DNA from: Umboniibacter marinipuniceus
GTDB taxonomy: Bacteria; Pseudomonadota; Gammaproteobacteria; Pseudomonadales; DSM-25080
Assembly: GCF_003688415.1 (NCBI RefSeq)
Contig: NZ_REFJ01000003.1
Coordinates: 310,001-374,000 of the forward strand
DNA length: 64,000 bases
Reading direction: 5' to 3'
The notes beneath the pieces were generated by a model, which was given only the letters and a program-made list of their open reading frames with translations, ran no database searches and was not told where the DNA came from. The position numbers and the translations under genes were made by a program. Below are positions 3,312 through 64,000 of the stretch, piece by piece (positions within the stretch are counted from its first letter, which is position 1; every line of letters starts with the position of its first letter).

Positions 3312-4547
3312 TTAAACGTGTTGTAGCGCCTCAATGGGATTGAGGCGAGCGGCTTGTTTGGCGGGATAGATGCCGAAACCCAACCCTACCAGGGAGCAGA
3401 TTGCCACCGCGCCAATAATTGCCATGAAGGAGAAGGCAACCTCCCACTCTGCCATAAAGGCAATCACCCATGAAAGAATAACGCCGAATACCACGCCCAT
3501 TAGCGCGCCCACCAAAGTGATAACAACCGTTTCGACTAAAAACTGACGGGTGATATCCGCTTGTGTAGCCCCTATTGCACGCCGCAGACCAATTTCCTGA
3601 GTTCGTTCAAGAACCGTAGCCAACATGATATTCATAATACCGATACCGCCCACCAGCAATGAAATACCTGCCACGGCTGACATCACCCAATTAAAGACGC
3701 GTTGAGTTTGACGGTGCTGTTCTAGCAGTTCGGCTGGGACGGTGATGCTAAAGTCCTTTAGCCCCCCATGTCGTGCCATGAGAAACTGTTCAAGTAACGC
3801 TGCAACTTGAGTTTGGTCGGTTCCTGGTACAATGTGAAACTTTAACTGGGTGTAGGGGCTAGCGTCAGTGGAGACCTGAAGCTTGGTGTGATAAGTACTA
3901 AATGGTAGATAGATTCTAAAACGCTCACCACCAGTTGAAAGCCCCTCAATACGCTGTGTTGATTCGGTTTTTGAGGCGATAATCCCAACTACTTCGAACC
4001 ACAGATGGTTGACCTTCACTAAGCCCCCAATTACGGGCTGATCACGAAACAGAGCCTGAGCCGCTTCATCGGTAATCACAGCTACCTGCCGATAGCGTTG
4101 AAAATCTTCAATATCAAAGGTCCTGCCCTGATCAACATCAAGTGATGCGTTCTCTAAAAACGCCTCCGTCACCCCAAGCACCTGCGGGGAGGCCTTCGCA
4201 AAGTCAGTGAATACTTGCTCTAACTCCAGCGTTGATGAGGCGGAAAAACCCTCAACAAAATCAAAGCTCTCGGCCACAGCCAACACGTCCTGATGACTCA
4301 GCCCAACACTTAGCTCGCGGGCGTCTGCATCGCTAGCGGACTGGTCAACGTAATCCACCACCACGCTATGAAGACCCAACGTCTCAATCGCCTTGAGCGC
4401 TGCTCGTTCGGCACCAACACCTATGTTTTGCATGGCCACTACCGCACCAACACCGAAAATCATCCCAAGAAGTGTTAACGAGGTTCGTAGGCGGTGATGT
4501 AGCATCTGCTCAACCGCCTGCTTAATTTCATTTAGTTGAATCATCAT
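3312..4547 (-). CDS. MacB/FtsX-type ABC transporter permease
   Basis: A 411-residue inner-membrane permease of the MacB/LolC/FtsX superfamily. A membrane helix near residues 20-40 (LTLLGMIFGVGAVVAM) is followed by a large periplasmic MacB_PCD-like domain. Three C-terminal helices form the FtsX domain, with the typical ATVLERTQEIGLRRAIGAT coupling region (about 310-330) and a GIYPAKQAARLNPIEAL tail. These permeases do not pass small solutes through a channel; they work as mechanotransmitters that drive periplasmic adaptors. The ATPase is encoded separately, unlike E. coli MacB where it is fused. The start ATG overlaps the stop of the upstream adaptor gene by 4 bp (ATGA), implying translational coupling. 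The substrate is unknown. Confidence 0.88.
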   Translation of the reverse strand: MMIQLNEIKQAVEQMLHHRLRTSLTLLGMIFGVGAVVAMQNIGVGAERAALKAIETLGLHSVVVDYVDQSASDADARELSVGLSHQDVLAVAESFDFVEGFSASSTLELEQVFTDFAKASPQVLGVTEAFLENASLDVDQGRTFDIEDFQRYRQVAVITDEAAQALFRDQPVIGGLVKVNHLWFEVVGIIASKTESTQRIEGLSTGGERFRIYLPFSTYHTKLQVSTDASPYTQLKFHIVPGTDQTQVAALLEQFLMARHGGLKDFSITVPAELLEQHRQTQRVFNWVMSAVAGISLLVGGIGIMNIMLATVLERTQEIGLRRAIGATQADITRQFLVETVVITLVGALMGVVFGVILSWVIAFMAEWEVAFSFMAIIGAVAICSLVGLGFGIYPAKQAARLNPIEALQHV

Positions 4548-62360: not shown

Positions 62361-62400
62361 CTATCGGTAGTGTTTAGCGTCAAGCTCAGCCTACCGATAG
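62361..62400. terminator. Inverted repeat downstream of serA
   Basis: A perfect 10-bp inverted repeat (62361-62370 with 62391-62400) with a 20-base loop spans the end of the minus-strand membrane-protein gene and the serA 3' end. There is no T run. It may act as a bidirectional terminator. Confidence 0.45.
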
Positions 62401-62744
62401 AGCTTGGGAACGCGAAAATAGTATACCGCGTAGAGTATGGCGCTAAGCCAGATAAATCCGGCCAAAAACGCATGCATATAAGGGCTCAATAGCGCGTAAA
62501 CACTTCCTGCAGCACCCATGGCCACCAAATATTGCACCCCCACTCTTGCCGTCACGGGTCCATCCTCACGATTTGCGGGAAACAACCACACTAACAATCC
62601 ATAGAGGGCCACAATCGGCACCCAGGCTTTCCAAGAAAACAAAGTAACGAAGAATCCTGCAAACATTGATGCTGCCGCCGTGGCGATGGTCAAGCTGACC
62701 GGCTCTTTAAAACTGACCAGTTGAGTTAACGTTTCTCGAGTCAT
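62391..62744 (-). CDS. Small multi-spanning membrane protein, unknown
   Basis: A 117-residue protein with four predicted hydrophobic helices (about residues 18-35, 40-55, 70-88 and 92-110), a charged N-terminus and a basic C-terminal end. I recognise no family. It is the gene nearest downstream of the three double-glycine peptides on the same strand, 89 bp away with a hairpin between. A bacteriocin immunity protein would look like this, but the context is the only support. It could as easily be an unrelated housekeeping gene. Confidence 0.6.
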   Translation of the reverse strand: MTRETLTQLVSFKEPVSLTIATAAASMFAGFFVTLFSWKAWVPIVALYGLLVWLFPANREDGPVTARVGVQYLVAMGAAGSVYALLSPYMHAFLAGFIWLSAILYAVYYFRVPKLYR

Positions 62745-62793
62745 TGTAGCTCCCTGCTAAGTGATGATAACGTCCGTTGTTAATCAGAAGGTA

Positions 62794-62813
62794 ACACTGA
62801 GCAAGCTCAGTGT
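62794..62813. other. Short perfect hairpin between peptide 3 and the membrane-protein gene
   Basis: A 9-bp perfect stem (62794-62802 with 62805-62813) and a 2-base loop lie 21 bp after the stop of peptide gene 3. On the minus strand it is not followed by a T run, so it is better seen as an attenuator or an mRNA end stabiliser than a full terminator. Confidence 0.5.
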
Positions 62814-62833
62814 CACTGTTACTCCTTGTTGAA

Positions 62834-63022
62834 TTACGCGGGTTGAGCCGCTTCCTCCTTCGGCGGTGGTGCTGGAGCCGGATCATCTAGTCCATCTAAG
62901 AATTGACTCGTCTTCTCAGCAATGTAGCCCAACGCAACGCCGGCCAGAAAGGCGCCCCCAACAATCAAGATGACGCCACCGCCATCCACTTCGGCCTGTT
63001 CGTCCAAGGTGAGTTCCCGCAT
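62834..63022 (-). CDS. Double-glycine-leader peptide 3 (bacteriocin/microcin-like precursor)
   Basis: A 62-residue peptide starting MRELTLDEQAEVDGG, in which Leu4, Glu8, Val12 and Gly14-Gly15 match the -12, -8, -4 and -2/-1 positions of a GG leader. The remaining 47 residues are a glycine-rich hydrophobic helix with GxxxG spacing (GVILIVGGAFLAGVALGYIAEK) and a Pro/Glu-rich tail (DPAPAPPPKEEAAQPA). I chose the ATG at 63022, one base after the stop of the preceding peptide gene, with a GGGGGTGAG ribosome site. The frame is open 11 codons further up, but that start would not give a leader. Likely exported and cleaved by the adjoining CvaB-type transporter. Confidence 0.78.
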   Translation of the reverse strand: MRELTLDEQAEVDGGGVILIVGGAFLAGVALGYIAEKTSQFLDGLDDPAPAPPPKEEAAQPA

Positions 63023-63023
63023 G

Positions 63024-63212
63024 CTACTCACCCCCATCCGAAGCAAGATAGCCACCTACAGCACTGCCTACAGCGGTGGCTGTAGCCGCCGCTGCCGATA
63101 GCACGTAAGGTGAAGCGTAGGTTACCAAACGTACGGCCAGCATCACCGTTACTGGGTTAATGAAGATGCCGCCGCTCACTTCCTGTTGTTGCTCAGAGTT
63201 TAGTAATTCCAT
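63024..63212 (-). CDS. Double-glycine-leader peptide 2 (bacteriocin/microcin-like precursor)
   Basis: A 62-residue peptide with leader MELLNSEQQQEVSGG: Leu4, Val12 and Gly14-Gly15 in the canonical GG positions, Gln at -8. The 47-residue mature part begins IFINPVTVMLAVRLVTYASPYVLSAAAATATAVGSAVGGYLA. It is a membrane-active-looking hydrophobic helix with Ala/Gly-rich spacing and an acidic end. It starts with an excellent ribosome site (AGGAGGTGT) that lies inside the 3' end of the first peptide gene. No immunity or modification motif is seen. It may be one component of a two-peptide bacteriocin with peptide 3. Confidence 0.78.
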   Translation of the reverse strand: MELLNSEQQQEVSGGIFINPVTVMLAVRLVTYASPYVLSAAAATATAVGSAVGGYLASDGGE

Positions 63213-63214
63213 TT

Positions 63215-63379
63215 CTAGACACCTCCTGTGGCGCTTTGATCAAAGACGAGTTCCTCGGGGGTCCAACCAAACATTTCAAATTCTGGTCGAACACCATTCG
63301 GCAGTTCGATGTAGATGATTGATGGTGGCGGATAGCCACCGCTTACTTGTTGCGCTTCACTGATAGATAACTCAGTCAT
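63215..63379 (-). CDS. Double-glycine-leader peptide 1 (short, proline/aromatic-rich)
   Basis: A 54-residue frame not otherwise called. It starts at the ATG at 63379 after an AAAGGAG site (6 bases) and ends with TAG at 63215. The leader MTELSISEAQQVSGG has Leu4, Glu8, Val12 and Gly14-Gly15. The 39-residue remainder is unlike the other two: YPPPSIIYIELPNGVRPEF-type sequence, then WTPEELVFDQSATGGV, with no hydrophobic helix, several prolines and an acidic/aromatic character. It may be a different bioactive peptide, a RiPP substrate or an accessory signal. It sits 27 bp after the transporter's stop codon, in the same operon. Confidence 0.78.
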   Translation of the reverse strand: MTELSISEAQQVSGGYPPPSIIYIELPNGVRPEFEMFGWTPEELVFDQSATGGV

Positions 63380-63406
63380 ATTGCACTCCTTTGCTTCGCC
63401 TGAACC

Positions 63407-64000
63407 TCAGGCCTGGACTGATGCACCTTGCATCAATTTGCTTACATCCACCAAGCCGGTGGCTGTTAATTCATAAACGGTATTGGCGGCGGCGATTGCA
63501 GCGCGGCGATGGGCAATAGACACCACGGTGATACGCAGAAGCTTAATATTAGCCAGAAGCTGAGCTTCAGCGGCATCGTCTAAATGGCTTGTTGCCTCAT
63601 CTAGCAGTAACAGCTTAGGGCCCTGATAGAGTGCTCTTGCGAGGAGCACCCGTTGAATTTGTCCCTGCGAAAGTGCTGTATCTAGATCGCCAACAATGGT
63701 TTCTAAGCCCATTGGAAGCTGCGCTACCAAGTCATGTAGTCCGCAACACTGCATAGCTCGCTCCAGCGCAGCTTCGTCAACCTGACCCGCGAAACTACTA
63801 ATGTTCTCTATCAGGGTCCCCGAGAGCAGCCGATCATCCTGTAGCACTTGGGCCACTGACGGGCGAATGTCAACACCTACCCCATAACCTACTTCTTCTC
63901 CGTGAATGAACACAACCCCCCGATCAGCGGGTAAATGACCACCAATAATTGCCATCAGCGTAGACTTTCCAACACCAGAAGGGCCGGTAATAACAATCAT
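63407..64000 (-). CDS. ABC transporter ATP-binding domain, CvaB/peptidase-type bacteriocin exporter (N-terminus outside window)
   Basis: The last 197 codons of a longer minus-strand gene whose 5' end lies past 64000. The visible nucleotide-binding domain has Walker A TGPSGVGKST at its first residues, a Q-loop (VAQVLQDDRLLSGTLIENISSF) and Walker B LLLLDEATSHLD, with the switch histidine in IAHRR. The SHLD after the Walker B and QDDRLLSGTL are text I recognise from colicin V/RaxB-type exporters that carry an N-terminal C39 peptidase. The signature is LSQGQ rather than LSGGQ. The three double-glycine peptides right downstream support this job; the peptidase domain itself cannot be seen here. Confidence 0.85.
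   Translation of the reverse strand: MIVITGPSGVGKSTLMAIIGGHLPADRGVVFIHGEEVGYGVGVDIRPSVAQVLQDDRLLSGTLIENISSFAGQVDEAALERAMQCCGLHDLVAQLPMGLETIVGDLDTALSQGQIQRVLLARALYQGPKLLLLDEATSHLDDAAEAQLLANIKLLRITVVSIAHRRAAIAAANTVYELTATGLVDVSKLMQGASVQA

Follow-up and report, generated by a model that had tools for sequence, protein, structure and literature searches.

A three-peptide double-glycine-leader operon with its own C39 peptidase-ABC exporter in Umboniibacter marinipuniceus: a probable multi-peptide bacteriocin

The window analysed here is a 64,000-nucleotide stretch (G000:C3:310001-374000) of the 2.69 Mb, 16-contig genome of Umboniibacter marinipuniceus (G000); the operon that crosses its end was followed further on an 18.5 kb stretch continuing past the window (L010; L010 position = window position minus 62500). 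Read along the minus strand, the order is a malic-enzyme gene, an HlyD-type adaptor, a C39 peptidase-ABC exporter, three short peptide genes, a terminator-like hairpin and a gene for a 117-residue membrane protein, beyond which a serA-like dehydrogenase lies on the opposite strand (the malic-enzyme and serA-like genes were named by eye from the sequence). The family is represented in the collection by three genomes and one genus only: G000, G002 and G001. The last of these corresponds to MAG HF-Din29, which came from an enrichment of coastal seawater on exometabolites of dinoflagellates; among typed genomes, Spongiibacter marinus is nearest to it, with an amino-acid identity of 51.2% (PMC7378039). 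The operon layout of G002 is identical, the G001 operon also sits after the same malic-enzyme gene (85% identical to that of G000), and the peptides occupy a constant chromosomal site in all three genomes.

The three consecutive short genes, separated by 2 bp and 1 bp as a preliminary description of this DNA had it, encode peptide 1 (minus strand, 63215-63379; 54 amino acids), peptide 2 (63024-63212; 62 amino acids) and peptide 3 (62834-63022; 62 amino acids). Each begins with a 15-residue leader carrying Leu4, Val12 and Gly14-Gly15, with Glu8 shared by peptides 1 and 3, again as described. The claim that each gene has a good ribosome site holds for peptides 1 and 2; that of peptide 3 (ggatgggggtgagtagc-ATG) is weaker. 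Open reading frames with a motif-bearing leader of exactly 15 residues are expected by chance at 0.27 per 64 kb (30 sequences drawn from a first-order Markov null, none with more than 2 such frames), and the three observed are all adjacent. The mature part of peptide 1 is 39 residues long, acidic and non-hydrophobic; that of peptide 2 is a hydrophobic, helix-prone segment of 47 residues; and that of peptide 3, also of 47, combines a hydrophobic GxxxG helix with a charged, proline-rich tail. Peptides 2 and 3 have one GxxxG each along with their hydrophobic stretches, and in peptide 2 a small-xxx-small run extends through A41, A45, G49, G53 and A57. This glycine/alanine run is weakly beyond chance (5% of shuffles), while that of peptide 3 is within chance expectation, and the structure model of peptide 2 (mean pLDDT about 57) gives at most a hint of helices. 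All three mature peptides are acidic (pI 4.0-4.8, with peptide 1 at about 4.05). The earlier judgement that they resemble no known bacteriocin is borne out by Pfam and NCBIfam, in which no family reached its cut-off; the match of peptide 3 to Pfam Bacteriocin_IIc is sub-threshold (17 bits, cut-off 27.1). These are new peptide families within a kind of system that is already known. A scan of the adaptor, the peptides and the 117-residue protein against anti-phage families (the exporter lay outside it) gave no match. A possible fourth peptide after peptide 3, starting at a GTG behind AAGGAG, was considered and rejected, G002 having lost its start.

The transporter end recognised from its QDDRLLSGTL and DEATSHLD text (minus strand, 63407-64000) belongs to a 693-residue exporter (L010:907-2988) that runs 1488 bases beyond the window. 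There it has the C39 peptidase domain that the preliminary description had proposed looking for (Pfam Peptidase_C39, 107.8 bits against a 22-bit cut-off), and the C39, ABC_membrane and ABC_tran models all score above cut-off. The triad Cys12/His85/Asp101 is invariant in five aligned exporters, and its spacing of 73 and 16 is that of CvaB, whose tested triad is Cys32/His105/Asp121 (PMC3335142). Identity to plasmid-borne CvaB is 34-35%; the closest solved relative is PCAT1 (4ry2); and the top NCBIfam match is the NHLP export transporter TIGR03796, at 363 bits against a cut-off of 853. The exporter start overlaps the end of the gene for the adaptor, a protein of 402 amino acids with HlyD_D23 and HlyD_3 above cut-off, which likewise had been sought upstream. 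Genes for TolC-family proteins are present at other sites in the genome. A search for modification enzymes, proposed at the same time, found none in or next to the operon in the L010 stretch. The original reading of a secreted-peptide system is thus supported by a complete C39-ABC exporter with its HlyD adaptor and by conserved, intact peptide genes; judged from these genes, export of the three peptides is close to certain.

Homologous loci in which the peptide genes were absent or broken would have spoken against such a system, and the trio is intact in both of the other family genomes. Peptide 1 is 85% identical in G002 and alignable only over its leader in G001; the corresponding identities are 97% and 67% for peptide 2, and 90% and 54% for peptide 3. 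In most genes the synonymous differences between G000 and G002 approach saturation; in peptide 2, 35 synonymous changes stand against 2 non-synonymous ones, and in peptide 3, 36.5 against 9.5. This pattern of substitution marks the peptides as real genes under purifying selection. In G001 the exporter is 36% and the adaptor 26% identical to G000, against 67% and 54% for peptides 2 and 3, a slower change of the peptides that rests on one pair of lineages. Cdz-like systems are reported to show the reverse, their secretion genes being most alike (PMC5380434). Replacement of the exporter in G001 as an explanation of the roughly 35% identity was rejected: the G001 exporter groups with those of G000 and G002 (99/96 support, on a long branch), so that its low identity reflects drift.

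Two RNA features flank the peptide genes. The terminator-like hairpin follows peptide 3 (minus strand, 62791-62816), and the pairing of its stem is kept in G002 through a compensatory change. Ahead of peptide 1, three short minus-strand hairpins (63448-63462, 63417-63437 and 63398-63412) span the exporter stop codon; the fold z-scores of this stretch are -3.4 and -2.8, and G000 and G002 differ in it by one compensatory change. In the same comparison 21 of 25 third positions are kept in the last 25 exporter codons (at most 18 of 25 in other exporter windows), and the synonymous distance of peptide 1, 0.53, is below that of the other genes compared. This silent-site conservation runs from the end of the exporter gene into the first part of peptide 1 (segment 63360-63500). 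Rfam holds no match. The stretch 63398-63462 is possibly an RNA element; the hairpin structure of the junction was not found in G001, so that a local recombination tract is possible as well.

On position and size, the best candidate for an immunity protein is the 117-residue membrane protein (minus strand, 62391-62744). Four long helices are predicted for it at low confidence (mean pLDDT about 57). The protein is 86% identical at the same place in G002; its C-terminal half can be aligned with an open reading frame located 3' of the G001 peptide 3 gene (E = 5e-6 for this one comparison); and 54 other relatives yielded no homologue. Small membrane-protein genes follow GG-leader peptides in six genomes altogether: G000, G002, G001, G046, G161 and G005.

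As for peptide 2, none of 368 other genomes sampled from the class gave a clear match, and within the order its matches were weak except in two genomes belonging to a single genus. Plasmids and viral contigs hold no relative of it, and viral contigs no match to the exporter. Distantly related versions of peptide 2 are found in G046 and G161, where a second GG peptide accompanies each of them and the small membrane protein downstream is a different one; the exporter of G161 is partial in the available sequence. The membrane protein that follows the two-peptide operon in these genomes (G046, L042:4781-5092; G161, L052:1117-1413) has a zinc-ribbon-like cysteine pattern and is possibly another immunity type; the Pfam matches of the G046 protein lie below cut-off. 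In G005 (L041:9628-10882) two GG peptides, one of which matches microcin V weakly and below threshold (13.3 bits where 27 are required), are followed by two small membrane-protein reading frames. The two GG peptides of G007 (L040:701-955 and 3352-3591) share their leader and 20 bases upstream, but their mature parts are unrelated to each other; the neighbouring exporter carries an in-frame TGA. A similar exporter in G035 is split over two contig ends (L046, L047), with its peptide neighbours out of view. As a control, 19 exporter loci of the order had sequence sufficient to look for the catalytic-cysteine motif: ATG-started GG-leader reading frames lie nearby at 7 of the 7 loci with the motif and at 0 of the 12 without it, some of the frames counted in G005, G007 and G012 being likely spurious and most of the motif-less loci being shorter, at about 5 kb.

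These observations probably describe an unmodified, exported multi-peptide bacteriocin encoded by a chromosomal operon, in which peptides 2 and 3 would form a membrane-active pair, the 117-residue protein would protect and peptide 1 would be accessory or confer specificity. This reading is preferred because the C39-ABC and HlyD genes are complete and in one run with the peptides; because peptides 2 and 3 are hydrophobic, carry GxxxG and are conserved by selection; because catalytic-cysteine exporters and nearby GG-leader reading frames coincide in the loci of the order; and because small membrane-protein genes follow GG peptides in six genomes. The genes, the common leader, the intact triad, the adaptor and the purifying selection are read from the DNA itself. 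The remaining steps, namely cleavage, export, pairing, killing and immunity, we infer as follows. The C39 domain would cut after the double glycine, and the exporter, the adaptor and an unlinked TolC-like channel would carry the mature peptides out, to be free in the medium or, as in Caulobacter Cdz, held on the surface of the producer. Peptides 2 and 3, as a helical pair, would insert into and permeabilise the inner membrane of related competitors, peptide 1 acting as an accessory or specificity factor, and the downstream membrane protein would shield the producer. Several facts count against the bacteriocin reading: the acidic pI of 4.0-4.8 is unlike that of typical cationic pore formers; peptides that outconserve their exporter at a constant chromosomal place and with no sign of mobility are unusual for bacteriocins; the immunity candidate, picked out by its position and size, lies 3' of the terminator-like hairpin; and the glycine/alanine run exceeds chance weakly in peptide 2 and not at all in peptide 3.

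The acidity of the peptides and their conservation in three family genomes at one chromosomal site would suit exported peptides with a part in making or controlling a community trait, such as a biofilm or surface structure, rather than in killing. The precedent is EbfG1-4 of Synechococcus, a group of proteins with GG leaders that leave the cell through a C39 transporter and are needed for biofilm (PMC4997328). We regard this as rather unlikely, since the fast-diverging small membrane protein that follows the peptides, here and at distant loci, fits immunity, and peptides 2 and 3, hydrophobic and with GxxxG, are composed like two-peptide bacteriocins. Quite unlikely, too, is a role directed at the producer's own kind, in autolysis, fratricide or cell-density signalling. 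The gonococcal nap island encodes several GG peptides alongside a C39 peptidase and a protein resembling immunity proteins, and its peptides cause autolysis rather than interspecies killing (PMC11798529). The acidic, poorly conserved peptide 1 could also serve as a signal; but the Nap peptides are cationic (PMC11798529), whereas peptides 1-3 are acidic, and the stretch read shows no receptor, histidine kinase or regulator gene. The NHLP model TIGR03796, as best NCBIfam match of the exporter, might suggest a modified-peptide (RiPP) system with its enzymes elsewhere in the genome. That is very improbable: the match is far under its cut-off (363 against 853 bits), the operon neighbourhood contains no modification enzyme, and leaders as short as 15 residues are typical of unmodified class II peptides.

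The known systems closest to the proposed bacteriocin are, on the best reading, Caulobacter Cdz and the class II microcins. Cdz, compared by description, likewise has a type I exporter with adaptor, a small transmembrane immunity protein (a candidate here) and small helical peptides that bear a leader and are rich in glycine and alanine. Systems of the Cdz type, which have one to three peptides each and have mostly been reported in gammaproteobacteria, are defined by a length of 60-151 residues, a G[G/A/S] leader, a polar C-terminus and a glycine zipper uninterrupted by proline or charge (PMC5380434). Peptide 3 fits this description except for its long tail, and peptide 2 loosely, with its zipper between P35 and D59; unlike Cdz, the zippers of both are short, with their single GxxxG, peptide 1 is under 60 amino acids and zipper-less, and peptides 2 and 3 outconserve exporter and adaptor. 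Class II microcins (microcin V with CvaA/CvaB; Acinetobacter Mcc17978, PMC10333792) share the leader of about 15 residues ending in GG or GA, the C39-ABC exporter (34-35% to CvaB), the HlyD adaptor, TolC-dependent exit (predicted here) and a small immunity protein (again a candidate here), but the known ones are mostly single peptides, whereas this operon has three different ones, and peptides 1-3 match none of the known microcin models. The Gram-positive class IIb bacteriocins also encode two helical, GxxxG-containing peptides with GG leaders in neighbouring genes, together with a dedicated exporter and a membrane immunity protein (here a candidate); the present system differs in its Gram-negative type I export chain, its acidic peptides, none with a model match above cut-off, and its third, unrelated peptide. 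EbfG1-4/PteB of Synechococcus and Nap of Neisseria, likened by description, also combine several GG peptides with a C39 peptidase, but there they have been shown to act in biofilm formation and autolysis, respectively.

The operon brings new peptide families into the small group of Gram-negative systems with several GG peptides, and it offers a ready test pair in peptides 2 and 3 and an immunity candidate in the 117-residue protein. A more speculative account, unlikely when taken as a whole, sees a vertically inherited three-part system in which peptides 2 and 3 would be held constant by mutual fit or a conserved target, exporter, adaptor and the acidic peptide 1 would drift, an RNA element at the exporter-peptide junction would set output, and a bacteriocin-like pair would have become a stable feature of the lineage, perhaps one that does not kill. 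If seen in more genomes, peptides that change more slowly than their exporter would be a counter-example to the rule that exporters stay constant while toxins vary.
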